A DNA stretch of 64,000 nt from Maritalea porphyrae (GTDB lineage: Bacteria > Pseudomonadota > Alphaproteobacteria > Rhizobiales > Devosiaceae), in NCBI RefSeq assembly GCF_030159895.1, contig NZ_BSNI01000002.1, forward strand, positions 1,948,306 through 2,012,305, written 5' to 3'. Positions within the stretch are counted from its first letter, which is position 1. Each line of letters opens with the position of its first letter. Positions 45,630 to 61,288 of this stretch are shown here, piece after piece. The translations under genes and the position numbers were made by a program. A model generated the notes under the pieces. That model did not search any database, was not told the DNA's origin, and saw only the letters and a list, made by a program, of their open reading frames with translations.

Positions 45630-46400
45630 ATGGAACAGTCCGATAAATATAAGGCGCCAGCTCTTGATAAAGGTCTTGATATCATCGAGATCCTGGCATC
45701 TGAAGGAACCAGTCTTACGCAAGGGGAAATTGCAAGCAGGCTTGGACGTTCAGTCAGTGAAATATTTCGGATGCTACATGTACTGCGCAAACGTGGTTTG
45801 ATTGCGCTTGATGAGCAAAGTGATCGTTATCACCTCACCACTCACTTATTTGAGCTTGCTCACCGTATACCCATTGTCAAACGTCTTACTGTTGCCGCAG
45901 CTCCAGTAATGCAACAGCTCGCCAAGAAGTGTAACCAATCATGCCACCTTGCGGTTCGCTCAGAGCATAGCGTTGTAATTGTTGGGCAGGTCGATAATCC
46001 TGGCAACAATGTTCTAAGCGTTCGTATGGGGGCCCGAATTGATCTATGGCGCACTTCCTCTGGTCGGGTAATCTTGGCTAATAGCGATCCTGCGGAACTC
46101 GAAAACGCATTCAAGACAATTCCGCATCCGGATGGCATTTCAATTGCGACGTTGCGCAAAGAGCTAACCGAAAGCGCTCGGATGGGTTTTGAGCAAATGC
46201 AGAGCTTTGTCGTTAAAGGGGTTGAAAACATCAGCGCGCCAATTTTGGGGTTTGATGGTTTCGCTGCGGCGGCACTGACAATTCCCTACATAGGTCGTTT
46301 TCACGGCGGCGTACCCATAGAAGAATGTCGACAGCATTTGCTGGATGCCGCCGACACGATTTCGGTTCAGCTAGGTGGACCCGCTCGGCACAGCGACTAA
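45630..46400 (+). CDS. IclR-family transcriptional regulator
   Basis: The 256-residue protein has an N-terminal winged helix-turn-helix (LDIIEILASEG...LTQGEIASRLGRSVSEIFRMLHVL) and a C-terminal effector-binding domain of the IclR type. KdgR and similar members control sugar-acid catabolism, which fits the cluster that follows. ATG at 45630 is used; the frame is open 18 codons further upstream. It converges with the Gfo/Idh gene, overlapping by 4 nt. It is the only regulator in this cluster. Confidence 0.9.
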   Translation: MEQSDKYKAPALDKGLDIIEILASEGTSLTQGEIASRLGRSVSEIFRMLHVLRKRGLIALDEQSDRYHLTTHLFELAHRIPIVKRLTVAAAPVMQQLAKKCNQSCHLAVRSEHSVVIVGQVDNPGNNVLSVRMGARIDLWRTSSGRVILANSDPAELENAFKTIPHPDGISIATLRKELTESARMGFEQMQSFVVKGVENISAPILGFDGFAAAALTIPYIGRFHGGVPIEECRQHLLDAADTISVQLGGPARHSD

Positions 46401-47458
46401 ATATCAGCAGATGGCAGCCTGTGTGATGCCAGTTCGTTCGCTTCAAAACAGGCTTCAACTAGGGCCATGGTTTCAATGCAATCTTCCACTGATGTTACAA
46501 GGAACTTGTCTTCTCCTGTGTGAAAACGTTGCACGTTACTCATGACACCGACAAATGCGTCGATGAACCAAGACCCTTCTAGTGGTATTTGCGCCCATTC
46601 GCCGCCAGACTTTGCATGCCATAGTTCGTCGGGCTCACCTTCAGGGTAATTCAAGTTAACGCCGATTTGTGTGATGAGTGCACCTTTCGTGCCTTCAAAA
46701 CGAAATTTGCAATTTTGGAATTTGGGATCAAAATCATGATTGTGATTGATCGAGAGCACACATCGCAACTGGTCGCCATAATCTAGCATGGCCGTCGTGC
46801 GTGTTTGTGCCATATCTGGGGAGCGAGGGTCACCCATTGTGCGGGCGAACACGCCCTTTGGCGCGCCAACGAGTGATCTGATCAAATCCAAATAGTGAAT
46901 TGAATGCACCGCGATCTCCACGCGATCCATTGTCTTTAGAAATGGAAAAAGGTGCCAAGGCGTGTTTACATTCAAATTCACTTCAATTTCTAGCAGTTCG
47001 CCAAGCACGCCTTGTTCAATCGCGTCGCGAACAGCGAGCATTTGGGGGCTGAAACGTAGTTGGAAATTTATAGCTGCATTCAAGTCTCTATCTCGAGAAA
47101 TTCTTAGTATCTCACAAGCTTGTGCGAAATCGGCACCCATTGGTTTTTGGATAAGGACTGTCGCCCCGTAAGGGATCTTGCTCAGAACGGGCGCAATTGC
47201 GGCAGGTGGCAATGCAAGGTCGTAAATCACTTCCGAGCCGAATCTAATGGCGTCTTCAAGCGAAGAGAATGTGTTTTCAATCGCCCATTCTTTGGCGACA
47301 TCGCTTGCGCGTTTTGGGTCTAGATCAAAAATGCCCAGAACAGTGAAGCCAGACTGAGCGTAAGCAGGGAGGTGCGCGTCAGTCACTATGCCGCCAGCGC
47401 CTATGATCACAATTGGAGTGGTTCGGGACGGCAGTTTCCATTTTTGTTGGAGTTGCAT
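46397..47458 (-). CDS. Gfo/Idh/MocA-family oxidoreductase
   Basis: The 353-residue protein has a Rossmann NAD(P) site (VIIGAGGIVTDAHLPAYAQSG) and the family motif IQKPMG near residue 105, the EKP-like segment with the catalytic Lys, and HSIHYLDLIRSLVG later. Such enzymes oxidise sugars or inositols. Here it is a candidate for the first oxidation of the imported sugar, because no other obvious sugar 1-dehydrogenase is present. ATG overlaps the preceding MaoC stop (TGATG), and AAGGGAG lies inside that gene's end. Confidence 0.88.
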   Translation of the reverse strand: MQLQQKWKLPSRTTPIVIIGAGGIVTDAHLPAYAQSGFTVLGIFDLDPKRASDVAKEWAIENTFSSLEDAIRFGSEVIYDLALPPAAIAPVLSKIPYGATVLIQKPMGADFAQACEILRISRDRDLNAAINFQLRFSPQMLAVRDAIEQGVLGELLEIEVNLNVNTPWHLFPFLKTMDRVEIAVHSIHYLDLIRSLVGAPKGVFARTMGDPRSPDMAQTRTTAMLDYGDQLRCVLSINHNHDFDPKFQNCKFRFEGTKGALITQIGVNLNYPEGEPDELWHAKSGGEWAQIPLEGSWFIDAFVGVMSNVQRFHTGEDKFLVTSVEDCIETMALVEACFEANELASHRLPSADI

Positions 47459-47910
47459 CAATGGCTCCCTTGTTTCTTTACAAGCAGAATATGTTCGCAA
47501 AACAAAACTGTCTCGTTTTTTTGGTTCTTGACTGAACAGCTCTCTATAACTTGGCCAAATGCGGGTCGTTTTGGATCATCCAAAACTCGTGAAATCTCAA
47601 TCTCAGTGTGAATTGTGTTGCCGATAAAAACTGGGTTCGGGAAGCGCAGGCGCTCGTATCCGTAGGTCATGGCATGTGGATTGATGATGGTGGCTGTTAA
47701 GCCAATCCCAATCGCAAATGTCATTGTTCCGTGCGCAATTCGTTTGCCAAATGGTTGGGTCTTACAAAACTCCTCGTCCATGTGATGGGGAAAAAAATCT
47801 CCGCTATGCCCCGCGTGAACGACGAAGTCCGTCTCAGTTATGGTTCGTGAAAGTGTTGTTCGCCGCTCCCCGAGTTCAAAACTCTCGAAATATCTGGGCT
47901 CTTCGTGCAT
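47458..47910 (-). CDS. MaoC-like hot-dog-fold protein (dehydratase family), copy 1
   Basis: The 150-residue protein has the MaoC-like hot-dog fold used by enoyl-CoA hydratases. The active-site region reads TDFVVHAGHSGDFFPHHMDEEF, with Asp and His at the expected places, followed by GKRIAHGTMTFAIGIGL. AAGGA lies 8 nt before the chosen ATG. It is translationally coupled to the Gfo/Idh gene and divergent from a second MaoC-like gene. A CoA-thioester substrate is expected from the family. Confidence 0.88.
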   Translation of the reverse strand: MHEEPRYFESFELGERRTTLSRTITETDFVVHAGHSGDFFPHHMDEEFCKTQPFGKRIAHGTMTFAIGIGLTATIINPHAMTYGYERLRFPNPVFIGNTIHTEIEISRVLDDPKRPAFGQVIESCSVKNQKNETVLFCEHILLVKKQGSH

Positions 47911-47938
47911 TACAAATATCCTTCTACTTTTGTATATA

Positions 47939-47976
47939 AAAATAGATTTGACATATAAAATAGTCAAGTTTAAGTT
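47939..47976. promoter_or_regulatory. Overlapping divergent promoters with shared inverted repeat
   Basis: On the plus strand TTGACA (47948-47953) is 17 nt from TAAGTT (47971-47976). On the minus strand TTGACT (47967-47962) is 17 nt from TATTTT (47944-47939). The two -35 boxes form an inverted repeat TTGAC-N10-GTCAA, so one bound protein could block or balance both MaoC-headed operons. Confidence 0.6.
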
Positions 47977-48003
47977 GAGGAAAATTCAGGGAGCACGCGA
48001 ACA

Positions 48004-48561
48004 ATGTCAGTTCAAATAGGAAGTCATGTAAGGCCGCCGGTAGATATGCCTAAGGAGCATGGCGCGATTCCTGTTTGGAATGCCGAGAACTGGTTTTACG
48101 AGGACTTCACTGTTGGAGATCAGATCAGGAGCTTAAGGCGCACCATCTCAGAAGGTGAGGCGATGCAATTCAATATGATGGTCATGGATCTGCACCCATA
48201 TGTGGCTGATCAGCACTTTGCAGAAAAAGAAGGTGTATTTGGCAAACGGCTCGTAGCAGGGGCGCAGGTGTTTTCTTACGGCTTGGGTCTTGCAGCAACA
48301 AACTGTTTGAACTCGTTCTCTTATGGATACGACCGCCTAAGGTTCATCAAGCCAGTATTCATTGGCGACACGATCTACACAATTCGCGAAAACCTTTCTA
48401 AGGAGCCCAAGTATGATGACATGGGTTTGGTGAAGGTAAGCTACAGCGTCTTCAAAGAGGAAGGCGTGCAGGTGCTTTATTGCGAGCATCTAATGACCGT
48501 GAAGTACCAGGACGCCACAACATTGCAAAGCAGTGCAAATCGCGCGGCAGGAAAGGCGTAA
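48004..48561 (+). CDS. MaoC-like hot-dog-fold protein, copy 2
   Basis: The 185-residue protein is longer than its divergent neighbour and has the same fold: [41 protein letters not shown], then [17 protein letters not shown]. The usual D-x4-H active-site pair is less clear here: the [12 protein letters not shown] segment has Asp and His, but spacing is shifted. It may therefore bind a different ligand or form a heterodimer with copy 1. Its stop is directly followed by the next ATG. Confidence 0.85.
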
Positions 48562-49698
48562 ATGGGAAAGGAATTCATCACGCTGAAGGGCATGACGTGG
48601 GATCATGCGCGCGGTTATGATCCGATGGTTGTTACGTCTGAAGTGTTTTGCGAAAAACGTTCACCCGCAGTGCAAATCGTTTGGGAAAAACGCTCGCTTC
48701 AGGCCTTCGCAGATCGGCCAATCCAAGATATGGCGAACGAATACGATTTGATGGTGATCGATCACCCGCACGTTGGTGACATCGCTTCGACAGGCATATT
48801 GCTGCCGCTCGATGGGCAGGGATATGATGACAAACTGCAGGTCCTTTCAGAACAATCTGTTGGCGTTTCGCATCCGTCATACAACTTCAGTGGCCGCCAG
48901 TGGGCGTTAGCAATTGATGCCGCCACACCGATTTCGGCGTACCGCGCTGACATTTTAGAGCGCGCGCCAAAAAGCTGGGATGAGGTTGTAGCATTGGCTT
49001 CGGCCGGTCAGGTTATTTGGCCCTTAATCCCAATCAATGCCCTTATGAGCTACTTCAATGTGCTTTCAAACTGCGGTTCTGACTTTGGAGCTGAACCGAC
49101 CGGAGTAGATTTGGAAGTCGGCGCAAACGCCTTACGCCAAATGAAACGGGTTAGTGATCATGTGCCTCAAGAGTCGTTCTTTCTCGACCCAATTGGCGCT
49201 TATGAATGGTTGTCTTGTCGAAATAGCCATTCATATTGTCCCTATCTTTACGGCTATACAAACTACTCTCGCCAAGGCTTCCGGCCAAATCAAGTTAGCG
49301 TTGCGAACATTCCCTCGTTTGCAGGAAGCGGTCCAATTGGGTCTCCAATCGGTGGAACAGGAATAGCGATTTCTGCGCGCACCAAACACAAAGACTTGGC
49401 GTTGGAATATGCGTACTGGATAGCATCGGCAGAGTGTCAGTCAGGCTTGTTTTTTGATGCAGGTGGTCAACCGGCAAATAACGTAGCTTGGACGGATGAG
49501 CGCTGTAACGCCGGTGCTTCAAATTTCTTCGCAAATACAATAGCAACGCTGGAAAATTCATACCTACGACCCCGCCACAAAGGATATATGGCGTTTCAAG
49601 ATGTCGCTGGCGACATCGTGCGTGATTGCTTAATGGGCGCCATATCGGAAAATGAAGCGGCGCGAAAAATCAATGTCCTCTATCAGAGGAGTTTTTGA
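48562..49698 (+). CDS. Solute-binding-protein-like protein without signal peptide
   Basis: The 378-residue protein has the fold pattern of sugar ABC transporter binding proteins (for example YDLMVIDHPHVGDIA, PKSWDEVVALA, GGTGIAISARTKHKDLALEYAYWIAS), but the N-terminus MGKEFITLKGMTWDH is hydrophilic. The ATG directly follows the MaoC stop with AGGAAAGG in front, so no export signal has been missed. It should stay in the cytoplasm. The cluster's real importer has its own binding protein 1.2 kb downstream. A cytosolic sugar sensor or a protein that holds a substrate for its enzymes is possible; neither is shown. Confidence 0.8.
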   Translation: MGKEFITLKGMTWDHARGYDPMVVTSEVFCEKRSPAVQIVWEKRSLQAFADRPIQDMANEYDLMVIDHPHVGDIASTGILLPLDGQGYDDKLQVLSEQSVGVSHPSYNFSGRQWALAIDAATPISAYRADILERAPKSWDEVVALASAGQVIWPLIPINALMSYFNVLSNCGSDFGAEPTGVDLEVGANALRQMKRVSDHVPQESFFLDPIGAYEWLSCRNSHSYCPYLYGYTNYSRQGFRPNQVSVANIPSFAGSGPIGSPIGGTGIAISARTKHKDLALEYAYWIASAECQSGLFFDAGGQPANNVAWTDERCNAGASNFFANTIATLENSYLRPRHKGYMAFQDVAGDIVRDCLMGAISENEAARKINVLYQRSF

Positions 49699-49700
49699 TT

Positions 49701-50924
49701 ATGAATCTCTACAACGCAAATGAAAATGCGATGTTGGATGGCCTGCTAGTGGTCGATTTTTCGCAGTTCCTCGCCGGTCCACTGGCAGGCCTTAAACTCG
49801 CCGATATGGGCGCCCGCGTCATAAAAATTGAACGGCCGGAAGTTGGTGACTTGTGCCGCTATCTTTACCTGACTGACGTCGAAGTGGATGGCGCCAACAC
49901 GCTGTTTCATGCAATCAACCGAAACAAACAAAGCTACTCTGCCGACCTGAAAAACAGCGATGATCTTGAGCGCGTTCGTACGCTCTGTTCGAAGGCTGAT
50001 GTCATCATTCAAAACTTTCGCCCCGGCATTATGCAAAGGCTTGGTCTCGACTACGAACAGATAAGGGCGATCAACCCGGGCGTGGTCTACGCTTCAATTT
50101 CTGGCTATGGAGAGCAAGGTGATTGGAAAGACTTGCCTGGGCAAGATTTATTGGCGCAAGCAAAGTCGGGCTTACTATGGCTCTCAGGTGATGATGGCGA
50201 TGCGCCTACCGCTATGGGATTGGCAGTAGCTGATCAACTCGCTGGAAATATTGCCGTGCAAGGTATCCTGGCCGCACTTATCAAGAGCGGCAGAACGGGC
50301 AGGGGCGCGCATATTCAGACCAGCCTCCTTGAGGCTTTGGTCGACTTCCAATTTGAAGTGCTGACTACGCATGTAAATGACCAAAAGAAGAGACTGCCCA
50401 AACGAAGTAGCTTCAATAATGCACATGCCTACCTTTCTGCCCCATATGGCGTTTATTCAACGAAGGACGGTTTCATTGCATTGGCGATGATGTCAGTCGT
50501 CAAGCTTGGTGAGATTATCAGTTGCGCGGCACTCGAGGCATTTAGTGATGAAACTCAATGGTTTGAGCAACGCGATCACATAAAGCGCATCCTTGCCCAG
50601 CACCTTGCATCCGAAAAATCAGAACACTGGATGAAGCTCTTCGTTGCGCACGATGTGTGGGCATCAGAAGTTTTGGATTGGCCGCAATTGTTCCAATCAA
50701 CAAGTTTTCAAGAACTCGACTTTTTCCAAGAAATTGACCTTGGAAAAGGCGCTTCCATGACAGCAATGCGTTCTCCAATAAGGGTGGATGGCGAGGTGCT
50801 CAAGAGCACAAAACCGGCGCCGATCATTGGCCAGCACAATGCTGAAATCGACCGTGAGTTTGACCTCACGACTTTGAACGACCAATCTATCACCAAGGGA
50901 GGATATGATGAGATTGTTAAGTAA
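49701..50924 (+). CDS. CaiB/BaiF-family (class III) CoA-transferase
   Basis: The 407-residue protein has the family start LLVVDFSQFLAGPLAGLKLADMGARVIKIERP, the VIIQNFRPG segment, and the nucleophilic Asp149 in LPGQDLLAQAKSGL. Such enzymes move CoA between carboxylic acids. ATG at 49701 follows GAGGAG; TTG two codons earlier is less likely. It is encoded between the solute-binding-like protein and the ABC importer. Its donor and acceptor acids cannot be read from sequence. Confidence 0.92.
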   Translation: MNLYNANENAMLDGLLVVDFSQFLAGPLAGLKLADMGARVIKIERPEVGDLCRYLYLTDVEVDGANTLFHAINRNKQSYSADLKNSDDLERVRTLCSKADVIIQNFRPGIMQRLGLDYEQIRAINPGVVYASISGYGEQGDWKDLPGQDLLAQAKSGLLWLSGDDGDAPTAMGLAVADQLAGNIAVQGILAALIKSGRTGRGAHIQTSLLEALVDFQFEVLTTHVNDQKKRLPKRSSFNNAHAYLSAPYGVYSTKDGFIALAMMSVVKLGEIISCAALEAFSDETQWFEQRDHIKRILAQHLASEKSEHWMKLFVAHDVWASEVLDWPQLFQSTSFQELDFFQEIDLGKGASMTAMRSPIRVDGEVLKSTKPAPIIGQHNAEIDREFDLTTLNDQSITKGGYDEIVK

Positions 50925-52221
50925 ACTATCGACTGTGCTGTTGGCAGGTGCCACAGCCGTCACAATGTTTGCCGGCGCGTCGAGCGCGGGCGAATTTGAT
51001 GGCTACACGCTGAAGGTGAAGCTTATCGGTGGTGCGCAATATGAGCCTTTGTACACGCGAATTCCGGAATGGGAAGCAGCAACGGGCGCGAAAGTAGAAA
51101 TTTTATCACGGAAAAACCACTTTGAGTTGGACCGCGAAATTAAACAGGATATCGCTTCGGGTTCAATCAATTGGTGTGTTGGCTCGAACCACACTAGCTT
51201 CGCACCACAATATGGCTCACTCTATATCGATCTAAGCGTTGTTTTGGATGAAGATGTAGTTGGCGCCATTTCCGAAAACGTCAACAATTCAAGCATGGTT
51301 GATGGCCGCTTGGTACAACTGGCGCGTCACTCTGACGTATCGAACTTGTACTACATCAAATCGCTTTATGAAGACGAGCAGAACAAGGCCGATTTTAAGG
51401 CCGAGTATGGCTATGATCTTATGCCGCCTGAGACTTGGGACCAGGTGAAAGACCAGGCAATTTTCTTTGCTGATCCACCGAACTTCTACGGAACACAATA
51501 TGTGGGCAAGGACGAAGGCATCTCGGGCCGTTTCTATGAAATGCTTGTGGCAGAGGGCGGAACGTTTTTTGGAACCGACGGCAAAGTTGCATTTAATTCG
51601 CCTGAAGGTGTTCGCGCACTTGAGTGGTTCGTTGACCTTTACGAAGCCAAAGCTGTTCCAGCTGGGGTTCCAAACTACCTGTGGGATGAAACAGGTCTAG
51701 GCTTTGCTTCAGGTACGGTCGCCCTAAACCTTGATTGGGGTGGTTGGGCAACCTTCTTCAACAGTGCGGACAGCAAAATCCAAGGCGATGTTGGGCTCAT
51801 CCGCGCGCCAAAAGGCTCCAGCGGCAAGCGTACTGGTTGGTCAGGTTCACACTCATTCTCAATCACTGAGGCCTGTGACAACAAAAAAGCAGCAGCTTCT
51901 TTTGTCACCTTCCTAACCAACTTTGACAGTCAATTGCTTGAAGGTCGCACAGGGTTATTGCCAACGCGTCCAGATGCAATCGCAGCTGTAATCGAAGAGT
52001 CACGTGCTGCTGGCAACGACTGGCTGGTGGAGGTGTTTGAAACCTATGGGGCTTCCATGGCTGAGGACGCATTCGCGGTTCCTTCAACACCATTGTGGAT
52101 TCCAATTTCAAATGAGCTCTTCCCTGAGCTTCAGGCCGCAATCGTTGGTGAAAAAACACCGCAACAAGCGTTGGATGATGCAGCTGCCGCTGCAAACCAA
52201 CTCATCGAGGATGAAGGCTGA
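50908..52221 (+). CDS. Sugar ABC transporter substrate-binding protein
   Basis: The 437-residue protein has a clear signal peptide with cleavage expected after SSA (residue 27), then a family 1 solute-binding domain (GFASGTVALNLDWGGWATFF, NPEGVRAL-like FNSPEGVRALEWFVDLY). It would capture a sugar in the periplasm for the two permeases and ATPase that follow. ATG at 50908 fits AAGGGAGG spacing better than the ATG 3 nt earlier; the start lies inside the CoA-transferase gene. A stem-loop separates it from the permease. Confidence 0.93.
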   Translation: MRLLSKLSTVLLAGATAVTMFAGASSAGEFDGYTLKVKLIGGAQYEPLYTRIPEWEAATGAKVEILSRKNHFELDREIKQDIASGSINWCVGSNHTSFAPQYGSLYIDLSVVLDEDVVGAISENVNNSSMVDGRLVQLARHSDVSNLYYIKSLYEDEQNKADFKAEYGYDLMPPETWDQVKDQAIFFADPPNFYGTQYVGKDEGISGRFYEMLVAEGGTFFGTDGKVAFNSPEGVRALEWFVDLYEAKAVPAGVPNYLWDETGLGFASGTVALNLDWGGWATFFNSADSKIQGDVGLIRAPKGSSGKRTGWSGSHSFSITEACDNKKAAASFVTFLTNFDSQLLEGRTGLLPTRPDAIAAVIEESRAAGNDWLVEVFETYGASMAEDAFAVPSTPLWIPISNELFPELQAAIVGEKTPQQALDDAAAAANQLIEDEG

Positions 52222-52246
52222 CCTCTGGCCGCAACCTCAGAACTAG

Positions 52247-52268
52247 GAGTGGGGTTACGACCCCACTC
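52247..52268 (+). promoter_or_regulatory. Intercistronic stem-loop between binding protein and permease
   Basis: GAGTGGGG pairs exactly with CCCCACTC around TTACGA, with no T-run. Such hairpins often protect the upstream message, raising binding-protein level over the permeases. Confidence 0.55.
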
Positions 52269-52306: not shown

Positions 52307-53230
52307 ATGTCAGTCATGACAAACATAAAGAGAAAACTATTCTCGGAACAGGCCACACCGTATGTGTTGTTGTTGCCGGCAGTGATCATGATTTTGATCG
52401 TTGTTTTGTTTCCGTTGATCTTCTCGCTTTACACCAGTTTCACTGGGTACAAATTAACTAGACCCGATACGCTTTTTAAGCTTGTTGGTTTCAGGAACTA
52501 TGTCCGAATTTTTGGCGATTGGGATTTTTGGGTCGCGTTTTTTAGGACCGTCGGATTTCTCGCTGTTGTGATTAATCTCGAGTTCCTACTTGGGCTTGGT
52601 ATCGCACTTCTGATCAACAAGATCACGTGGGGACAACGCACGATGCGCACCATCATGATGTTTCCCATGATGTTTTCGCCCATTCTGGTTGGTTTTCAAT
52701 TCAAATTCATTTTCAACGACAATGTCGGCATCTTGAATAATGCGTTGCAGGGGCTTGGGATCACGGAAGCTGCAATACCTTGGCTCGTTGATGGTTGGCT
52801 CGCCATGGGAGCGATTGCCTTCGCTGAGATTTGGATGAGCACAAGTATTTTTGCCATTCTGTTGCTCGCTGGCCTTTTCGCGATGCCAAAAGACCCTCTT
52901 GAAGCGGCCCAAGTTGATGGGTGCAATGCGTGGCAGACTTTTCGACACATCACGCTGCCATTTTTGATGCCCTTTGCCTATATCGCGATGACTATTCGCT
53001 CACTTGATGTCGCCCGTGCCTATGACGTGGTGGACACTATGACCGGAGGCGGGCCTGCGGGGCGCACGGAGCTGCTTTGGACACTTATCGCTCGAACAGG
53101 GTACGACAGCGCGAACATGGGTATGGCGAATGCGATGGCCTATGTGTCGATCATTCTCTCGATCGCTTTCACATATTACTTCTTTTCTAAACTCGTTGCT
53201 GCCCGACGTTACATGGGAGGCGCACTCTAA
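52307..53230 (+). CDS. Sugar ABC transporter permease (MalF-type)
   Basis: The 307-residue protein has six membrane helices and the ATPase-contact EAA loop EAAQVDGCNAWQTFRHITLP near residue 210. MSVMTNIKRK start follows GGAG by 6 nt. The stop overlaps the next permease start by one base (TAATG). Confidence 0.94.
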   Translation: MSVMTNIKRKLFSEQATPYVLLLPAVIMILIVVLFPLIFSLYTSFTGYKLTRPDTLFKLVGFRNYVRIFGDWDFWVAFFRTVGFLAVVINLEFLLGLGIALLINKITWGQRTMRTIMMFPMMFSPILVGFQFKFIFNDNVGILNNALQGLGITEAAIPWLVDGWLAMGAIAFAEIWMSTSIFAILLLAGLFAMPKDPLEAAQVDGCNAWQTFRHITLPFLMPFAYIAMTIRSLDVARAYDVVDTMTGGGPAGRTELLWTLIARTGYDSANMGMANAMAYVSIILSIAFTYYFFSKLVAARRYMGGAL

Positions 53231-54075
53231 TGAGCACTCAAACAAAAGCCATCATCAGCTGGATTGTCACCTTCATCGTAATGCTCATCATCACGATGCC
53301 AGGTCTGTGGGTCATCCTTTCCGGTTTCCGGCCCTTGCAAGAAATCCTAGCGAAACCGGCAATATGGATACCTCAGCGCCTAACGCTAGACAATTTCTAT
53401 GCCATATTTGGCATTGGTGAAACACAGATTGCCATCCCAGTTTTGGCGTATTTCCGCAACTCGATAATCATCGCTACCACCAGCACGGCGATTGCAATCA
53501 TCGTGGGTATTTCTGGCGGTTACGCATTCGCGCGGTATCGCTTTAAGTTCAAAGATACGCTGTTCTTGGGGTTGATGCTGTCTCGCACCGTCCCTGGAAT
53601 TGCACTTAGCTTACCAGTGTTCATTGTATGGGCTCGCCTTGGCTGGATAGACACACAGTTTGGATTGATCCTTGTTTATGTCGCGCTAAACGTGCCGTTC
53701 ACGATCTGGTTGATTGATGGGTTTTTCCGCCAGATTCCAAAGGAACTCGCAGAAGCAGCCGAAGTTGATGGATGTACGCGTTGGCAGGCATTTTGGAAGA
53801 TCGAGTTTCCGCTCGCCAAGTCCGGAATCGCATCCGCAGGAATCTTTGCTTTCCTAACGAGCTGGAACGAATTTGCCCTCGCAAGCAATCTGACGCGGTC
53901 CACAAACAGCAAGACACTACCAGTTGGCTTAACCGACTTCATTGCACAATTCACGACGGATTGGGCGGGCATGTGCGCAATGGCATTTATCATTATCGTG
54001 CCAGCGCTGATCCTGACTTTCCTTGTTCAAAAACACCTCATTGCCGGCCTGACGTTCGGCGGCGTAAAGGGATAA
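53230..54075 (+). CDS. Sugar ABC transporter permease (MalG-type)
   Basis: The 281-residue protein has six membrane helices and the EAA loop [20 protein letters not shown] near residue 178. It pairs with the upstream MalF-type permease to form the channel of a carbohydrate uptake (CUT1) importer. The ATPase gene follows within 2 nt. Confidence 0.94.
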
Positions 54076-54077
54076 AA

Positions 54078-55196
54078 ATGACTGAAGTATCACTCAGCCA
54101 AGTTGTAAAACGTTACGGACAACTGGAAGTTGTTCATGCCATCGACCTTGAAATCAGACACTCAGAGTTTGTTGTTTTAGTCGGTCCGTCAGGATGTGGA
54201 AAATCCACAACATTACGGATGATTGCAGGACTTGAAGAGATTTCGGGTGGCACCATTAAGATTGGCGACAAAGTCGTCAATAAATTGGCACCGCGTGATC
54301 GCAACATCTCGATGGTGTTCCAAAACTACGCGCTTTATCCGCACATGACTGTTCGCGACAATCTTGGGTTTGGTTTGAAGATCGCAAAACACCCAGAAAG
54401 CGAAATTCAAAATCGGGTTGAAGAAGCAGCTGAAATTTTGGGACTTGGTATGCTGATGGATCGTTTGCCAGCAGCGCTATCAGGTGGACAACGTCAGCGT
54501 GTGGCCATGGGGCGCGCGATTGTACGCAATCCCGATGTGTTCCTGTTTGATGAGCCTTTGTCGAACCTAGATGCGAAGCTGCGCGTGCAAATGCGCACGG
54601 AAATCAAGAAGCTACACAAGCGGGTTAACAACACCATCGTCTACGTTACGCACGACCAAGTGGAGGCGATGACGCTGGCCGACCGGATTGTGATAATGCG
54701 CGACGGCCATATAGAGCAGGTGGGGACACCGCTAGAGGTGTTCGACCATCCCGTGAATACATTTGTCGCATCATTCATTGGCAGTCCTCCTATGAACCAG
54801 TTGGAAGGAAAAGTTGTTGATGGTGGAAAATCAGGTCTGCAGATCACGCTAGCCGACAACATCCTAATTCCGGTTCCAAAGCGCTCGAAAAACCGTGTCA
54901 GCGTAGGGCAGGACATCACTGTCGGTATCCGTCCTGACGATCTGACACCAGTAGGACATGGCATGAAGGAAGACGGCGAAACGGTGAGTTTTGATCTTAC
55001 GGTTTCTATCTCCGAGCCACTAGGCACTGAAACAATTCTTTTCTCCTCAATTGGAGCAAAAGAAGTACAGGGCAAAATGCTTAACCCTCGTCCGATTGAA
55101 CTTGATGAACGCCTTACATTCAATTTGGCGATGGATCGTGTTCATTTGTTCGACGCAGCAAGCGGCCAAAACGTACTTGGCGATGCCAATGGCTAA
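54078..55196 (+). CDS. Sugar ABC transporter ATP-binding protein (UgpC/MalK type)
   Basis: The 372-residue ATPase drives the importer. Walker [10 protein letters not shown] is near residue 38, the signature LSGGQRQRV near 136, Walker [17 protein letters not shown] near 156 and the switch His in [15 protein letters not shown] domain forms the last 120 residues. AAGGGA precedes the ATG. The 3' end overlaps the enolase-superfamily gene by 8 nt. Confidence 0.95.
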
Positions 55197-56298
55197 GATC
55201 GAGCGCATTGAAATCTTGATGGTCGACCTGCCACCAAAGGTGAAGCGGGTTGACGCCATCCAGAGTTTCGAAAGTCAAGAGACACCGATTGTCAAAATCA
55301 CGGATAGCGATGGCGCAATCGGGGTCGGCTACACATACACAATCGGGCAGGGTGGTCCGGCCATCATGTCACTCTTAGAGCGCACTTTGTTGCCCAAGCT
55401 GGTCGGCTGTGATCCCATGCAAATAGAGAAGATTTGGCGCGATATGCTGTTTGCAACTCATGCGACTAGTGTTGGTGCTATTACATCTCTGGCACTTGCA
55501 GCAATCGATACAGCCCTTTGGGACTTGAAATGTAAAAAACTAAATCAACCGCTGCACAAAATGGCAGGCGGTGCAAAGGAACGTATCCAGCTTTACTCAA
55601 CGGAAGGTGGATGGTTGCACCTTTCACCCGAACAACTGGTCGAGGATGCACAGGCAAGAAAAGCCGAAGGATTTAAGGGCGCAAAGATCAAAATTGGTCA
55701 TCAATTGGCCGCCGACGATGCTGCAAGGTTGAGCGCGGTGAGAAATGCGGTTGGCGATCGCTTTGAAATCATGACGGATGCAAACCAAAGCTTCAGTCTT
55801 TCCGAAGCGCGCCGTCGTGCACGGGTGCTAGAAGAATTCAACATTGGGTGGTTTGAAGAGCCATTGCACGCCGATGATGTCGGCGCGCACGAAAACCTAG
55901 CCGCATCCACGAGTATTCCTATTGCGGTTGGTGAAAGCATGTACTCGATCTCCCAGTTCAATGAATATTTACGCCGCGATGCTGCCTCGATTATTCAAGT
56001 GGATGTTGCGCGCATTGGTGGCATCACACCCTGGTTAAAGGTCGCTCATGTGGCAGAAGCATTCAACGTCGCAGTGTGTCCGCATTTTCTGATGGAATTG
56101 CATGTTTCGCTTTGCTGCGCTGTCCCAAATTCCAACTGGCTTGAATTCATTCCGCAGCTTGACCGTTTGACGAATTCTTCGATGAAAATTGAAGACGGTT
56201 TTGGCGTGCCATCTGATGAACCTGGCTTGGGCATTGATTGGGATTTCGAGGCAATCGCAAGACTTAAAGCTGATGGGTCTGAAGCGGTCATAAACTAG
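55189..56298 (+). CDS. Enolase-superfamily sugar-acid dehydratase (mandelate racemase group)
   Basis: The 369-residue protein has a capping domain and barrel with the superfamily residues: KIK (Lys-x-Lys) near 164, Asp in MTDANQSF near 195, Glu in EEPLHADD near 222, Glu in VGES near 247, and Asp/His in QVDVARIGG and CPHF. This places it with acid-sugar dehydratases such as L-fuconate, L-rhamnonate or galactonate dehydratase, though it is shorter than typical L-fuconate dehydratase (about 440). A 2-keto-3-deoxy sugar acid is the expected product. ATG at 55189 or 55183 is possible. Confidence 0.88.
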
Positions 56299-56308
56299 GG
56301 AGTTCACA

Positions 56309-56638
56309 ATGGAACGAATGGGAATGGTCATTGGTATCAGACCAGAGTTCATCGAAAAATATAAAGCCCTACACGCTGATGTTTGGCCGGAGATCCTGCG
56401 AAGTTTGTCAGACTGCAACGTGACTAACTATTCAATATTCCTGCGTGAACCGGAGAACTTGCTGTTCGGTTATTGGGAGTACGTCGGTGACGATTTCGAA
56501 GCAGATATGCAGAAGATGGCCAGTCTGCCAATTACCCAAGAATGGTGGGATGTTTGCATTCCATGCCAGAAGGCGCTCGACACCCGCAAAGAAGGTGAGT
56601 GGTGGGCAATGATGGAAGAGGTTTTCTACCATGCCTGA
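56309..56638 (+). CDS. RhaM-type (DUF718) sugar mutarotase
   Basis: The 109-residue protein fits the RhaM/DUF718 family, which interconverts anomers of L-rhamnose or L-fucose. GIRPEFIEKYKALHADVWPEI carries the conserved His/Asp region, and YSIFLREPENLLFGYWEY is family-typical. AGGGAG precedes the ATG. Of all genes here it points most directly to a 6-deoxyhexose substrate. Confidence 0.88.
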   Translation: MERMGMVIGIRPEFIEKYKALHADVWPEILRSLSDCNVTNYSIFLREPENLLFGYWEYVGDDFEADMQKMASLPITQEWWDVCIPCQKALDTRKEGEWWAMMEEVFYHA

Positions 56639-57287
56639 ATTGAAAAAACTCACGGATGATTTGTCCAAATGCTACACCGGCGTTGTCCACGACATCATGC
56701 GCAAAGAAGGTTTCCGAAACTTCACATTTCCAAGCGAAATCACTGCGCTTTTGCCCGATCAAGTGCTTTGCGGCCCAGTGTTCACCATTGAAGGGCGGGT
56801 TGATGAGACCGCTGACGGACACCAGACGTTGTTGGAGTGGACGGGTTTGCTTTCAAGAGCAAAACCAGGTCGCATTTGGGTATCTCAACCAAATGACCGC
56901 ACAATTGCGCACATGGGCGAGTTGTCCTCTGAAACGCTAAAATCAAAAGGTGTTTTGGGTTGTGTTGTGGATGGGGGAATCCGCGATACCCACTTTTTGA
57001 AAGCACAAGGATTTCAAGCTTGGCGGAGGTTTCACACGCCAAGAGACGTCGTTGGTCATTGGTTGCCGACGGGTTTCGACGTCGACATCATTATAGGTGA
57101 CGTCCTCATTCAGCCAGGTGATTTTCTCCTCGGTGATCTGGACGGGTTGGTGCGTGTGCCCAAGGCTAAAGTGCAAGACATTACCGCCAAGTCAGTTATG
57201 GCAATGCAGACAGAGAGCAAAGTGCGAACTGCAATCCTTGGTGGCATGGATCCCCAAGAAGCCTATCTCGAGTTTGGAAAGTTCTAG
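56631..57287 (+). CDS. RraA-like / HMG-CHA aldolase-fold protein
   Basis: The 218-residue protein has the RraA fold with GCVVDGGIRDTHFLK near residue 110, where Arg and Asp bind the substrate and a metal in the aldolase members. The family includes 4-carboxy-4-hydroxy-2-oxoadipate aldolase and oxaloacetate decarboxylases as well as the RNase E inhibitor RraA. In this catabolic setting a decarboxylase or retro-aldolase is more likely. It overlaps the mutarotase gene by 8 nt. Confidence 0.83.
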   Translation: MPELKKLTDDLSKCYTGVVHDIMRKEGFRNFTFPSEITALLPDQVLCGPVFTIEGRVDETADGHQTLLEWTGLLSRAKPGRIWVSQPNDRTIAHMGELSSETLKSKGVLGCVVDGGIRDTHFLKAQGFQAWRRFHTPRDVVGHWLPTGFDVDIIIGDVLIQPGDFLLGDLDGLVRVPKAKVQDITAKSVMAMQTESKVRTAILGGMDPQEAYLEFGKF

Positions 57288-57290
57288 ACT

Positions 57291-57632
57291 ATGAACGATG
57301 ATACAAAAAAACGGCTCTCTAAACCGACTGACAATCGGCTGTTGTTGTTGGATGATGATGACAACGTTTTGGGGGTAGCGCGCCCGATCCGGGCTGGGGA
57401 AGCGATCCCGATTGATGGCGAATATGTACGGTTGGATCGCAATGCTGGCATTGGCTTCAAAATCGCACGAAAACCAATCAAAAAAGGTGATGAGATCAAA
57501 AAATATGGCGCGGTGATTGGCACTGCAAGTTCTGACATATCGGTGGGGCAGTTGGTGCACGTGCACAACACCCAGTCCAACTATTTGGCAAATACAGTGC
57601 TAGCGGGAACACAAGAGGACAACAATTCATGA
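57291..57632 (+). CDS. UxaA-type dehydratase, small (SAF) subunit
   Basis: The 113-residue protein is the SAF-domain half of altronate/galactarate-type dehydratases, with AIPIDGEYVRLDRNAGIGFKIA and the His-rich LVHVHN end. In single-chain UxaA this is the N-terminal part. It overlaps the large-subunit gene by 4 nt, so the enzyme is split. Confidence 0.88.
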   Translation: MNDDTKKRLSKPTDNRLLLLDDDDNVLGVARPIRAGEAIPIDGEYVRLDRNAGIGFKIARKPIKKGDEIKKYGAVIGTASSDISVGQLVHVHNTQSNYLANTVLAGTQEDNNS

Positions 57633-58819
57633 ATGGTTACCTACGTTCTGATGGCCGCAAGGGCATCCGAAATGTGACACTTGTGGTGTATTTGGTGGAG
57701 TGTGCGCATCACGTGGCGCGCCAGATTGCGCAGAAATTTACGCCCCAACATGTTCAAGTCGTTGGGTTTCCAGGCTGTTATCCCAATGAATACGCGCAGT
57801 CGATGATGGAGAAACTTTGCACACATCCAAATGTTGGCGCAATTCTAATTGTGTCTTTGGGGTGTGAAGGGTTCAACAAACTAAGGCTTAAGGATGTTAT
57901 CGCACAGAGCGATCGCCCTGTTGATGTTCTAACAATACAAGGTGAGGGGGGCACACGCTCGACTGTCCAAAAGGGCATTGACTGGGTCCAAAAAACGAAG
58001 AAGAGACTTGATGAAACTCCAATTGTAGCGATGGACGTTTCTGAATTGGTCGTTGGCACCATTTGCGGTGGCTCGGATGGTACGAGCGGTTTGACGGCGA
58101 ACCCGGCAATCGGCCGGGCTTTTGATAAGCTCGTTGAACAAGATGCAACGTGCATTTTTGAAGAAACCGGAGAATTGATCGGCTGTGAAACGCATATGGC
58201 GCAGCGAGCCATCACGCCTGAGCTAGGCGAAGAGCTAACTAAATCCGTTGAAAAAGCCGCACGCTACTATGAAACACTAGGGTATCCTAGCTTTGCGCCT
58301 GGCAATGCGGATGGTGGGCTTTCGACCATCGAAGAGAAATCAATGGGTGCATATGCCAAGAGCGGAAAGTCAAAGATTTCAGGATTGTTGAAGCCTGGTG
58401 ATTTGGCGCCAGCTGGCGGGTTATATTTGCTAGATGTTGTCCCAGATGGCGAGGTACGGTTTGGCTTCCCAAACATTGTCGACAATGCCGAAATTGTAGA
58501 GCTCATCGCCTGCGGGGCACATGTAATCTTGTTTGCAACGGGTCGAGGTTCGGTCGTTGGGTCCGCAATATCACCTGTTATCAAAGTCTGCGCAAATCCG
58601 CTGACCTATTCGCGCTTATCCGAGGATATGGATGTAAACGCTGGACGAATATTGGACGGTGACGGCTCGCTAGATGAGGTGGGTGATGAGATATTTGATC
58701 TAGTTGGCAAGGTTGGCCGTGGCCAAATGACCTGTTCTGAGGAGCTGGGTCATACAGAGTTTGTTTTGACGTACAAGAGTTTTGAGCCCATTGGACCGGC
58801 ATGTTTGCCGCACGCATAG
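57629..58819 (+). CDS. UxaA-type dehydratase, large subunit
   Basis: The 396-residue protein matches the UxaA C-terminal domain: YLRSDGRKGIRN at the start, FPGCYPNEYAQ, LGCEGFN, and ICGGSDGTSGLTANPAIG near residue 150. Conserved Cys and acidic residues bind the catalytic iron in this family. Altronate, galactarate and L-fuconate-type sugar acids are known or proposed substrates. It gives the cluster a second possible sugar-acid dehydratase besides the enolase-type protein. Confidence 0.9.
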   Translation: MNGYLRSDGRKGIRNVTLVVYLVECAHHVARQIAQKFTPQHVQVVGFPGCYPNEYAQSMMEKLCTHPNVGAILIVSLGCEGFNKLRLKDVIAQSDRPVDVLTIQGEGGTRSTVQKGIDWVQKTKKRLDETPIVAMDVSELVVGTICGGSDGTSGLTANPAIGRAFDKLVEQDATCIFEETGELIGCETHMAQRAITPELGEELTKSVEKAARYYETLGYPSFAPGNADGGLSTIEEKSMGAYAKSGKSKISGLLKPGDLAPAGGLYLLDVVPDGEVRFGFPNIVDNAEIVELIACGAHVILFATGRGSVVGSAISPVIKVCANPLTYSRLSEDMDVNAGRILDGDGSLDEVGDEIFDLVGKVGRGQMTCSEELGHTEFVLTYKSFEPIGPACLPHA

Positions 58820-58833
58820 AAGAGTAGAATGAT

Positions 58834-59571
58834 ATGACTTCACTTAAAGGAAAGAAGTGTTTGGTTACAGCCGCGGCCCAAGGTATTGGCCGTGCTAGTG
58901 TTTTGCGCCTTATTGAGGGTGGGGCAGAAGTAATTGCGACAGATATAGATGAAGAGGGTCTGAACTCGTTGGTCGGTGAAACTGAATGCAGAGTTTCGGT
59001 GTTGAACGTGTTGGACAGTCAGGCAATCGCCAACCTGGCTGCTGACCTTGGGTCCATAGATGTTCTGTTTAACTGCGCTGGCTTTGTTGCAAATGGTTCA
59101 ATTCTTGAAAGTGAAGACAAGGATTGGGACTTTTCATTCTCTTTGAACGTGACAGCCATGTATCAAATGATCAAAGCATTTCTGCCCAAAATGCTGGATA
59201 ATGGCGGCGGCTCAATCATCAACATGTCTTCTGTAGCATCCAGTCTCAAAGGTGTGCCGAACCGATGTGCGTACAGTGCTTCAAAGGCCGCTGTCATTGG
59301 CCTCACCAAATCCGTTGCTGCAGATTACGTTACGCAAGGAATACGTTGTAACGCCATATGCCCCGGTACTGTGCAGTCGCCGTCGCTGGAGGGACGATTG
59401 TCTGCTGATGGCAATTATGAACAAGCAAGAGCTGAGTTTATTGCCCGACAGCCAATGGGCCGTATCGGCGAGCCAGAAGAAATAGCAGAATTGGTAGCAT
59501 ATTTGGCCAGTGATCTCGCGGCATACACCACAGGACAAGCGCTTGCCATTGATGGCGGCTGGACAATTTAG
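58834..59571 (+). CDS. BDH2-like SDR, probable 2-keto-3-deoxy-sugar-acid 4-dehydrogenase
   Basis: The 245-residue short-chain dehydrogenase has the NAD motif TAAAQGIGRAS near residue 11, the NAG-type motif NCAGFV, Ser in MSSVASS and YSASK as the catalytic Tyr-Lys. It is strikingly like human BDH2/DHRS6 and the bacterial 2-keto-3-deoxy-L-fuconate dehydrogenases (EDKDWDFSFSLNV, IKAFLPKML). It would oxidise C4 to a 2,4-diketo acid for the next enzyme. Confidence 0.9.
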   Translation: MTSLKGKKCLVTAAAQGIGRASVLRLIEGGAEVIATDIDEEGLNSLVGETECRVSVLNVLDSQAIANLAADLGSIDVLFNCAGFVANGSILESEDKDWDFSFSLNVTAMYQMIKAFLPKMLDNGGGSIINMSSVASSLKGVPNRCAYSASKAAVIGLTKSVAADYVTQGIRCNAICPGTVQSPSLEGRLSADGNYEQARAEFIARQPMGRIGEPEEIAELVAYLASDLAAYTTGQALAIDGGWTI

Positions 59572-59582
59572 GGAAAGAAAAA

Positions 59583-60425
59583 ATGAAACTTATGCGTGTT
59601 GGTCCGAAGGGGCAAGAACGACCCGTCATTCTTGATGCAGACGGTATTTATCGGGACATTTCCGCTCACATTGGTGATCTAACGGGAGACAAGTTGGGCG
59701 CTGAAACACTCACAAAACTACAAGCGTTGGACTTGTCGACTTTGCCCGAGTTAGATGCGAATGAGCGCATTGGTGCATGTGTCGCCAATGTTGGAAAATT
59801 TATCTGCATAGGGCTCAATTATGCCGACCACGCAGCAGAGTCGGGCCTTGATGTTCCATCTGAGCCCGTGATGTTTATGAAGGCAACTTCCGCTATCATC
59901 GGCCCAAATGATGATGTTGAAATCCCGCGCAACTCTACCAAAACGGACTGGGAAGTCGAATTGGGTGTTGTGATCGGCCAAGAGGCTAAGTATGTGGAAG
60001 AGGCGGACGCCCTTGACTATGTTTCTGGCTACTGCGTGATCAACGATCTGTCCGAGCGCGAATTCCAGATAGAACGGCAAGGGCAGTGGGTCAAAGGAAA
60101 ATCTGCAGATACATTTGGGCCAATTGGTCCATATCTCGTGACCAAAGACGAAATTGCTGACCCTCAAAACCTAGATATGTACTTAGAAGTCAACGGTGCA
60201 CGCCATCAAAGCGGTAATACTAAAACCATGGTGTATGGGGTTGCGCACCTCGTGGCTTATGTTTCTCAGTTTATGAGCCTACAACCCGGCGACATTATTT
60301 CAACCGGCACACCTCCGGGCGTTGGTTTGGGCATGAACCCGCCAGTTTACCTTAAGCCAGGTGATAAAATGAAACTTGGTATTCAGGGATTGGGTGAACA
60401 GCAACAAACTGTCATTCAAGGATAG
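59583..60425 (+). CDS. Fumarylacetoacetate-hydrolase-family enzyme, probable 2,4-diketo-3-deoxy-sugar-acid hydrolase
   Basis: The 280-residue protein has the FAH C-terminal fold with metal ligands in WEVELGVVIG (Glu-x-Glu) and the Asp of VINDLSERE, plus STGTPPGVGLG near residue 240. In the non-phosphorylative L-fucose and L-rhamnose routes a member of this family cleaves the 2,4-diketo acid to pyruvate and lactate. Neighbouring SDR and lactonase genes support that assignment. Confidence 0.9.
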   Translation: MKLMRVGPKGQERPVILDADGIYRDISAHIGDLTGDKLGAETLTKLQALDLSTLPELDANERIGACVANVGKFICIGLNYADHAAESGLDVPSEPVMFMKATSAIIGPNDDVEIPRNSTKTDWEVELGVVIGQEAKYVEEADALDYVSGYCVINDLSEREFQIERQGQWVKGKSADTFGPIGPYLVTKDEIADPQNLDMYLEVNGARHQSGNTKTMVYGVAHLVAYVSQFMSLQPGDIISTGTPPGVGLGMNPPVYLKPGDKMKLGIQGLGEQQQTVIQG

Positions 60426-60436
60426 GAGAGGTCGCC

Positions 60437-61288
60437 ATGTCCCCATTAATCGACACGCATCAACATCTAATGTACCCGAAGCAATTCGGTTATTCGTGGG
60501 CAAATGAACTGCCAGTTCTTCATGAGAAACAGTATGATGTCTCTTCGTACGAAGCGTTGGCAGGTGGTCAAGTTTCTGCATCAGTTTTTATGGAAACAGG
60601 TGTTGATGAAAATGACTATCGCGACGAGACTGAGTTTGCAATCAGCCTCGCTCGCGATCCGTCGAACAACACCGTTGGTGTAATTGCCGCAGCGTTTCCT
60701 GAGCATACAGAAGAGTTTGAACAGTGGCTTGAACAAACCGTCGATGAGCCTTTGATACTGGGCTATCGCAGAATTTTGCATGTCGTGGACAATTCTGTTT
60801 CGAAAGATGCTGCGTTTCGCAAAAATGTGCGTCGAATTGGTGCGCACGAAAAGACATTCGATATGTGTTTTCTAGAAGCGCAACTCGATGTGGCGAATGC
60901 ATTTGCCGCAGCATGTGACAATACCCAACTTGTTCTTGACCATTGTGGTGTGCCTAATATTGCAAATGGCGATTACAAGTTTTGGAAATCACAAATTGCA
61001 GAACTCGCAAAAATGGATCACGTAGCTTGCAAAATATCGGGCTTGGTTGCGTATTGCGCACCTGATCAGGATCGTGAAGTCGCTGTCCGGCCATATATTG
61101 AATTTGTCGTTGAACAATTTGGTGCTGATCGTTGCGTTTGGGGCAGCGATTGGCCAGTCGTCAACATGGCAGAAGGTCTGCCTGACTGGTTGAACGTAAC
61201 GAAGCGCATCTTGGGCGAAGAAACGATCGAAACGCAATCAAAGATATTCTCAGAGAATGCTCGATCAATTTATGGGGTTGCTGTTTGA
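60437..61288 (+). CDS. Amidohydrolase-2 family lactonase (L-fucono/L-rhamnono-lactonase-like)
   Basis: The 283-residue metal-dependent hydrolase has DTHQHLMYP at the N-terminus, the barrel residues LDHCGVP near residue 168, and WGSDWPVV near 236, typical of amidohydrolase family 2. Sugar-lactone members open L-fucono- or L-rhamnono-1,4-lactone. It is the last gene of the cluster and follows FAH by 11 nt with AGGAGAGG. Confidence 0.88.
   Translation: MSPLIDTHQHLMYPKQFGYSWANELPVLHEKQYDVSSYEALAGGQVSASVFMETGVDENDYRDETEFAISLARDPSNNTVGVIAAAFPEHTEEFEQWLEQTVDEPLILGYRRILHVVDNSVSKDAAFRKNVRRIGAHEKTFDMCFLEAQLDVANAFAAACDNTQLVLDHCGVPNIANGDYKFWKSQIAELAKMDHVACKISGLVAYCAPDQDREVAVRPYIEFVVEQFGADRCVWGSDWPVVNMAEGLPDWLNVTKRILGEETIETQSKIFSENARSIYGVAV

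Follow-up and report, generated by a model that had tools for sequence, protein, structure and literature searches.

Here we report a sugar gene cluster in the 3.35 Mb genome of Maritalea porphyrae (assembly GCF_030159895.1) that also carries a putative coenzyme A (CoA) thioester module. The cluster lies in a 64,000-nucleotide stretch of contig NZ_BSNI01000002.1 (positions 1,948,306 to 2,012,305), hereafter the window, in which all coordinates are given. By family, its sugar genes resemble a nearly complete non-phosphorylating route 3 for L-fucose/L-rhamnose-type sugars, and with them stand two MaoC hot-dog proteins (MaoC1 and MaoC2), a class III CoA-transferase (CaiB) and a leaderless protein of solute-binding fold (SBPc). 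We propose, tentatively and with somewhat less than even confidence, that this block acts as a CoA-cycling acid dehydratase like E. coli CaiB/CaiD, which would bring a second 6-deoxy-hexonate into the same diketo-acid pathway. Gene content, packing, conservation, catalytic-type residues, the missing leader, co-occurrence and a similar promoter motif are directly supported. An earlier sequence-only reading had described a hydrolytic 6-deoxyhexose route with a CoA-thioester block that the route does not need; this observation is confirmed, every family that it named being present in its place by open reading frames and Pfam and NCBIfam matches, and its interpretation is partly supported.

A CoA block within a fucose-type sugar cluster

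The 15 genes from MaoC2 to the amidohydrolase (48004-61288) overlap or lie at most 14 bp apart at every junction except that between the exported solute-binding protein (SBP) and the first permease, where the gap of 49-85 bp depends on the choice of start codon. Because of these near-continuous overlaps and short gaps, the CoA block and the sugar genes look like one predicted transcription unit, which takes in the CUT1 importer genes (50905-55196, from open reading frames and Pfam/NCBIfam matches). MaoC1 and a Gfo/Idh dehydrogenase form a divergent pair with overlapping ends, adjoined by an IclR-family regulator gene. The same gene string recurs in other genera. In a search with the UxaA-type dehydratase subunit the nearest homologues (81%) came from Maritalea, and these genomes (L149 and L150; L numbers denote surveyed loci) share the string of block, importer and enolase-type gene.

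The UxaA-subunit search gave 80 loci, 12 of them with SBPc within the flank. Fourteen loci had RhaM (at least 55% identity), short-chain dehydrogenase/reductase (SDR, at least 55%) and FAH (at least 60%) homologues beside UxaA, and SBPc was present somewhere in 12 of these 14 genomes against 12 of the 35 others searched (P 0.0015). Across all 49 genomes SBPc and MaoC1 occurred together in 21, SBPc only in three, MaoC1 only in one and neither in 24 (Fisher 1e-9); both P values are upper-bound indications, since UxaA was the way to these genomes and the set includes many relatives. The block does not, therefore, sit mostly beside unrelated genes, the outcome that the sequence-only reading had named as fatal to it. 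In several genera it stands beside the sugar operon or under a similar promoter motif, and it is not a hitchhiker.

An operator-like palindrome, TTTCATATATGAAA, lies at 45596 upstream of the IclR gene and was among the sites that went into the matrix; the highest-scoring operator match of the 64-kb window, TTTTGTATATAAAA at 47928, falls in the divergent promoter between MaoC1 and MaoC2. When the matrix was built without the site of the locus under test, shuffling gave P below 0.05 at the block promoter in five of nine loci (the window and Nitratireductor, both 0.002; Shinella, 0.007; Sinorhizobium meliloti, 0.037; L114, 0.045), values that are optimistic, since the motif was chosen and regions were redrawn after inspection. 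The operator of L113 is weak, ranking sixth at the block and fortieth at IclR, and in L087 the chosen CaiB region reaches only rank 65, with better matches at 19500 and 19889. Separate CaiB/SBPc operons have promoters that resemble the sugar promoter in sequence, and in S. meliloti such an operon lies about 10 kb from the fucose operon. This species has SBPc, CaiB and MaoC1, and is reported to grow on L-fucose (PMC4207669). In S. medicae the fucose operon is directly followed by a TRAP transporter with MaoC2 (65%) behind it.

Composition of the module

In the carnitine metabolism of E. coli a class III CoA-transferase and a hydratase (CaiB and CaiD) dehydrate a 3-hydroxy acid with catalytic CoA. 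We surveyed 40 SBPc loci from the searched genomes (L113-132 and L147-166, with close relatives and some weak matches left out), scoring a gene as present when a tblastn probe position fell within 10 kb and using one probe per enzyme, which distant members could escape. CaiB was found in 33 loci and a MaoC or crotonase hydratase in 34: both together in 33, CaiB only in none, hydratase only in one (L152) and neither in six (L119-121, L154, L164 and L166; Fisher 1.8e-6). The hydratase was of MaoC type only in 17 loci, crotonase only in 15 and both in one (L115). On a tree of 41 SBPc sequences, with labels assigned by hand, starred branches force all four of the changes that the crotonase label requires, one of which rests on L126, a long branch of unsure placement; because of these changes, the two folds of hydratase appear to substitute for each other.

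Probes for acyl-CoA dehydrogenase, CoA ligase, MCC and HMG-CoA lyase matched in none of the 40 loci, and the thiolase probe matched in one (L115). Among 14 hand-picked plasmid loci, CaiB and hydratase stood together in 13 (MaoC1 of L084 lies beyond 10 kb), with thiolase in one (L085, beside an aromatic cluster) and ligases in two (L085 and L137). By these counts the pair, like CaiB/CaiD, appears to need no ligase or beta-oxidation enzymes nearby, and because the ligase, thiolase and beta-oxidation probes were nearly all negative, we infer that the transferase itself both loads and releases the CoA. A recurrent sugar cluster (L134, L135, L136, L130 and L163) holds genes for Gfo/Idh, an AP_endonuc_2 barrel, a DUF4432 epimerase-like protein, SDR, CaiB, SBPc and crotonase, with an FAH-like gene as well in L130, L134 and L136.

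The MaoC1 protein has intact active-site residues for a hydratase: it matches 4ffu at E 1.8e-59, and its Asp38/His43 dyad is kept in 14 of 14 aligned proteins (the homologues closest to the MaoCq probe lie outside the alignment). MaoC2 is likely a non-catalytic partner: it keeps the Asp, but Val takes the place of the catalytic His in 13 of 13 aligned proteins. It was not seen in L086, L117 and L118. Because the two-domain MaoC hydratase 8hgn (beta-methylmalyl-CoA dehydratase) is matched in its N-half by MaoC1 and in its C-half by MaoC2, we read these two proteins as a split double hot dog, the single protein of 8hgn being divided between two genes in the window. Among 19 aligned crotonases, some from outside SBPc loci, Glu129 is present in 18 and Glu109 in 13. 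CaiB is a class III CoA-transferase by PF02515 (322 bits), with its catalytic-type Asp149 in 52 of 53 aligned CaiB-family proteins (Asn in L046), and against the carnitine CoA-transferase model NF002914 it scores 86 bits, below the equivalog cut-off of 413. The module thus shares with E. coli CaiB/CaiD a class III CoA-transferase, a hydratase and a CoA cycle that would run without a ligase; it differs in the likely substrate class, in having MaoC in place of crotonase, in the low score of its transferase and in the extra SBP-fold protein.

The AlphaFold2 model of SBPc (pLDDT 90.9, from a 13-row alignment with six rows cut at locus ends) matches CUT1 sugar binders in Foldseek, at TM 0.71-0.83 normalised by SBPc and 12-19% identity among the 50 matches listed. 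SBPc shares this fold with CUT1 binders such as SmoF and MalE3; unlike them it lacks an export signal and is paired with CaiB rather than with permeases. Its start lies six residues ahead of the first strand's motif region, which reads GxTWxHxRG in the window. All 40 full-length homologues carry the N-terminal motif [GA]x[TA]Wx[HD]xR, and 39 of the 40 have no leader-like stretch before it (the status of L088, a long frame, was taken from the annotated start); in L123 a hydrophobic upstream stretch scores 1.79, versus 2.03 for the exported SBP, if the most upstream start is used. Residues W13, R17, D67, H68, Y107, D119, Y235, Q293, Q303, W310 and R336 are invariant in 41 rows, which were chosen by the motif that itself contains W13 and R17. 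SBPc would be the substrate-binding subunit of the module or an unrecognised enzyme; those plasmid records that give its homologues a name list them as solute-binding or carbohydrate-transport proteins.

A CaiB-SBPc gene fusion was considered and rejected: the long frame in L134 is an upstream extension in a different frame from the annotated CaiB, and the L088 record annotates two separate genes. A second leaderless SBP-type protein, recognised from its N-termini, occurs near Gfo/Idh or MaoC1 in L133 and L138 and has homologues in L124 and L125, in loci that carry two CaiB genes; L148 also matches it and has one CaiB. Importers in the L133/L138-type loci are RbsABC-type or SusCD/RhaT, with no CUT1 permease seen there. 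L119, L120 and L121 form a separate SBPc clade (support 100/99) near SDR and enolase-type genes, without CaiB or hydratase matches, which suggests that SBPc may have a function of its own.

The sugar route and its genes

By family, the window holds the same six roles as route 3 (FucM, FucA, FucB, FucC, FucF and FucG; PMC11199699): mutarotase, dehydrogenase, lactonase, dehydratase, KDF 4-dehydrogenase and FAH hydrolase. An imported 6-deoxy-L-hexose would pass through mutarotase, dehydrogenase, lactonase, UxaA-type dehydratase, KDF 4-dehydrogenase and FAH hydrolase to pyruvate and L-lactate, the end products reported for route 3, in which oxidation at C4 is described as making L-fucose- and L-rhamnose-type acids converge (PMC11199699). 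Compared with that route, the window has a Gfo/Idh candidate for the 1-dehydrogenase, a split UxaA dehydratase, an extra enolase-type enzyme, an RraA-like protein and the CoA block. C. jejuni fuc genes likewise include a predicted dehydratase (Cj0483) and a mutarotase (Cj0488) (PMC6946681).

The sequence-only reading had credited the locus with every step of the route, which holds for the families and is slightly too strong for the roles. Those of Gfo/Idh and the lactonase rest on family and context, and the lactonase and FAH candidates score below the cut-offs of the fuconolactonase and 2,4-didehydro-3-deoxy-L-rhamnonate hydrolase models (121.7 against 400 bits for NF052480 and 429 against 500 bits for NF053535, respectively), the former also matching PDB 4dlf at 1.8e-19. 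Gfo/Idh matched no PDB chain at E<=1e-9; it is the only dehydrogenase in the cluster besides the SDR and adjoins MaoC1 in annotated fucose-type loci. The SDR fits the KDF/KDR 4-dehydrogenase role by sequence, matching human DHRS6/BDH2 (2ag5) at 288 bits and, at 283 bits, the SDR entries 8y11/8xwk, which we take to be the L-KDF 4-dehydrogenase structures of the route 3 study.

What had been read as a single sugar-acid dehydratase is a dehydratase candidate of split UxaA type (SAF and UxaA C-terminal subunits) together with an enolase-type enzyme. From Pfam and synteny the UxaA pair is the candidate aldonate dehydratase of the route: it occupies, in the window and in Ponticoccus, the place of the annotated L-fuconate dehydratase in syntenic operons of Sinorhizobium, Roseibium, Shinella, Nitratireductor and Pararhizobium. 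A heteromeric two-gene L-fuconate dehydratase of UxaA type was inferred from gene context in Paraburkholderia mimosarum, likewise beside fucose genes (PMC6336799); the CoA block of the window is absent from the dehydratase section of that paper and the term CoA from its main text. On the strength of this precedent and of the syntenic position, a SuyAB (sulfolactate sulfo-lyase)/sulfoquinovose reading of the SAF/UxaA pair was set aside. The enolase-type enzyme, whose nearest solved relatives include anhydrogalactonate cycloisomerase and L-talarate/galactarate dehydratase, is retained even in loci with an annotated L-fuconate dehydratase, and because of this it probably does something other than L-fuconate dehydration. 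The RraA-like gene, an addition to the earlier gene list, accompanies the UxaA-type dehydratase, also in Bosea loci without fucose genes, and may encode an aldolase for the product of that dehydratase. A tRNA-Ser gene (45392-45482) lies directly ahead of the cluster.

Table 1. Features of the cluster, with positions in the window, strand and the matches behind each assignment
Feature	Position	Strand	Basis
IclR-family regulator	45630..46400	+	PF01614/PF09339
Gfo/Idh/MocA dehydrogenase, candidate sugar 1-dehydrogenase	46397..47458	-	PF01408, PF22725
MaoC1, hot-dog hydratase, Asp38/His43 intact	47458..47910	-	PF01575; 4ffu, 8hgn N-half
Divergent promoter region	47911..48003	.	operator-like match TTTTGTATATAAAA at 47928
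MaoC2, hot-dog protein, Val replacing catalytic His	48004..48561	+	PF01575; 8hgn C-half
SBPc, leaderless CUT1-type solute-binding fold	48562..49698	+	PF13416; AlphaFold2; Foldseek
CaiB, class III CoA-transferase, catalytic-type Asp149	49701..50924	+	PF02515 322 bits
Exported CUT1 solute-binding protein, signal-peptide-like N-terminus	50905..52221	+	PF01547; sequence; N-terminal hydrophobicity
Two ABC permeases	52307..53230 and 53230..54075	+	PF00528
UgpC/MalK-type ATPase	54078..55196	+	NF008653 486.6 bits, cut-off 432
Mandelate racemase/enolase-type sugar-acid enzyme	55183..56298	+	PF13378; nearest PDB 2og9, 2pp0, 5xd7
RhaM-type mutarotase	56309..56638	+	PF05336 115 bits; TIGR02625 55.9 vs cut-off 99.6 bits
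RraA-like aldolase-family protein	56631..57287	+	PF03737
SAF subunit, split UxaA-type dehydratase	57291..57632	+	PF08666
UxaA/GarD C-terminal subunit, candidate L-fuconate-type dehydratase	57629..58819	+	PF20629/PF04295; 6u7l; synteny
BDH2-type SDR, L-KDF 4-dehydrogenase candidate	58834..59571	+	2ag5 288 bits, 8y11 283 bits
FAH hydrolase, 2,4-diketo-3-deoxy-L-fuconate/rhamnonate hydrolase candidate	59583..60425	+	NF053535 429 bits, cut-off 500
Amidohydrolase-2, fuconolactonase candidate	60437..61288	+	PF04909; 4dlf 1.8e-19; NF052480 121.7 bits, cut-off 400

Place of the module and competing explanations

Several loci point to the step at which the module acts. Seven of the eight CaiB loci with a TRAP match within 10 kb have no Gfo/Idh or lactonase match. 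The order in L147 (Microvirga, same contig as L071) is TRAP, SBPc, CaiB, MaoC2, MaoC1, KDF dehydrogenase (62%) and FAH (66%). L153 (Skermanella) has TRAP, MaoC1 and CaiB on one strand and SBPc, CaiB and KDF dehydrogenase (62%) on the opposite one; none of the probed dehydratases matched within 10 kb. L127 combines genes for Gfo/Idh, a lactonase-type amidohydrolase, CaiB, SBPc, MaoC, an FAH-like protein and a sugar ABC importer, with no match to the probed sugar-acid dehydratases. In all, 21 of 54 loci have CaiB and hydratase with no enolase-type, UxaA, UxuA or IlvD/Edd match within 10 kb, a count that includes some loci that end at a contig edge or have a dehydratase more than 10 kb away. Because of these patterns the module is placed, by elimination, at sugar-acid dehydration. 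The TRAP genes of L139 are part of a uronate operon, and among annotated regions uronate genes lie near the module in this locus only.

In the following scheme we infer the substrate and product, the cycling of CoA and the part played by SBPc. The free sugar acid would be held by SBPc, and CaiB would transfer CoA to it from the product thioester; MaoC1, paired with the non-catalytic MaoC2, would then remove the 3-OH from the (3R)-aldonyl-CoA, and CaiB would pass the CoA on to the next acid, with no ligase or thiolase required. A dehydratase for L-fuconate is already present, so that the most economical choice of substrate would be a second 6-deoxy-hexonate, either another epimer or an acid imported as such, that the UxaA enzyme refuses, and the product would enter the same 2-keto-3-deoxy to 2,4-diketo pathway. 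MaoC-type hydratases have R specificity and crotonases S specificity, and C3 is R in L-fuconate and L-rhamnonate and S in D-mannonate. MaoC is the hydratase of the fucose-type loci, and crotonase that of three related mannonate dehydratase loci (UxuA is above its cut-off in L128 and matched by probe in L129 and L131).

A number of observations weigh against this scheme. The stereochemical match is our own derivation from stereodescriptors, and as a small match it is no more than suggestive. SBPc stands without CaiB in seven of the 40 loci, six of which also lack the hydratase, so that it is not strictly a CaiB subunit. It is uncommon, with six carriers among 385 genomes of the class and 18 among 398 of the phylum (its own genome included), and it is lacking in two genomes with RhaM, SDR and FAH beside UxaA (Stappia, L058, and a Blastopirellula metagenome-assembled genome, L050). 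The promoter motif gave P 0.067-0.29 in four of the nine loci (Roseibium, L116, L132 and Pararhizobium). An ordinary dehydratase is also present in many sugar-importer loci, where the module looks redundant, and a UxaA cluster adjoins L147. Gfo/Idh is present in 15 of the 29 loci with ABC only, and the difference in Gfo/Idh between these and the eight TRAP loci is not significant (P 0.10); two of the TRAP loci, L089 and L115, belong to one type and are closely related, and the absences are probe-limited, the Gfo probes having missed the Pfam-detected Gfo/Idh of L127.

Redundancy with an ordinary dehydratase is what two of the alternatives would account for. A special substrate such as a 2-O-methyl or otherwise blocked 6-deoxy-hexonate, in which thioester activation replaces the free alpha-OH required by metal-dependent dehydratases and the hydratase opens an enol ether, would explain why both systems are present. 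The hydratase domain of PaaZ hydrolyses a cyclic enol ether, and among NCBIfam models PaaZ scores best with MaoC1 (67 bits) and also with MaoC2 (48 bits), though far under the cut-off of 563. We nevertheless judge a substituted acid unlikely: no recurring demethylase or methanol gene was seen in the annotated neighbourhoods, where no dedicated search was made, and importers and sugar genes of several kinds accompany the module. Alternatively, CaiB may form a thioester that the hot-dog or crotonase protein epimerises at C2, yielding the epimer that the UxaA enzyme accepts. The CaiB fold family includes alpha-methylacyl-CoA racemases, some loci carry two CaiB genes, and retention of the normal dehydratase would follow. 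An enolase-type L-fuconate dehydratase is reported to partition to the 2-epimer with D-arabinonate (PMC6336799). Epimerisation is quite unlikely all the same, as the conserved hydratase dyad fits elimination and 21 of 54 loci, some of them cut by contig ends or with a dehydratase just farther out, have CaiB and a hydratase but no probed dehydratase within 10 kb.

Two further explanations detach the module from the sugar acid. An independent carboxylate pathway that shares the promoter by chance would suit L089, L115, L155 and L157, in which SBPc and CaiB accompany TRAP importers and no fucose-type genes, but the continuous overlapping gene run of the window, the repeated synteny, the genome-wide co-occurrence and the motif at the separate S. 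meliloti operon (P 0.037) make it very unlikely. Most improbable is the use, through a CoA ester, of the L-lactate released by the FAH enzyme. Lactoyl-CoA has no beta-OH for MaoC-type elimination. Pyruvate and L-lactate are indeed the end of the route (PMC11199699), and a D-lactate dehydrogenase is annotated near one module (L133), but few other acyl-CoA enzymes lie nearby. The second branch suggested by the sequence-only reading thus stands as a reading; its example of a released hydroxy acid is less likely, given the lack of further acyl-CoA enzymes recurring next to the block and the grouping of the module with the KDF dehydrogenase in two TRAP-linked loci (L147 and L153). Beta-elimination of a uronoside or of Rha-GlcA via CoA was also considered.

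The proposed CoA-cycling dehydratase may be compared with oxidative deoxyribonate catabolism, a route that uses a beta-keto-acid cleavage enzyme; no such enzyme is among the families of the window cluster, which has a CoA-transferase and a hydratase instead. The two have CoA thioesters in sugar-acid breakdown in common, that route proceeding via glyceryl-CoA (PMC9007349). Searches outside subscription papers and preprints returned no paper for aldonyl-CoA-type names, none that by title or abstract dealt with a CaiB/MaoC block under fucose, rhamnose or binding-protein terms and none under the S. meliloti locus numbers SMb211xx. An unexplained enrichment of CaiB in SAR202 has been described in a sponge-symbiont study (PMC6306507).

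More broadly, CaiB, a leaderless SBP-fold protein and a hydratase of matching stereochemistry (MaoC for 3R, crotonase for 3S) might constitute a general and undescribed CoA-thioester route of sugar-acid dehydration, serving many sugars in Pseudomonadota, Bacteroidota and Verrucomicrobiota, with a transport fold turned cytosolic enzyme subunit; in this general form we regard the idea as doubtful. Metal or iron-sulfur enzymes, which work without CoA, are normally credited with sugar-acid dehydration. Should aldonyl-CoA chemistry exist, it would be a new type of step in sugar catabolism, and CaiB genes that annotation cannot place would find an explanation. The periplasmic binding-protein fold would then have been recruited to the cytosol, and the transport annotations of SBPc homologues would be wrong.

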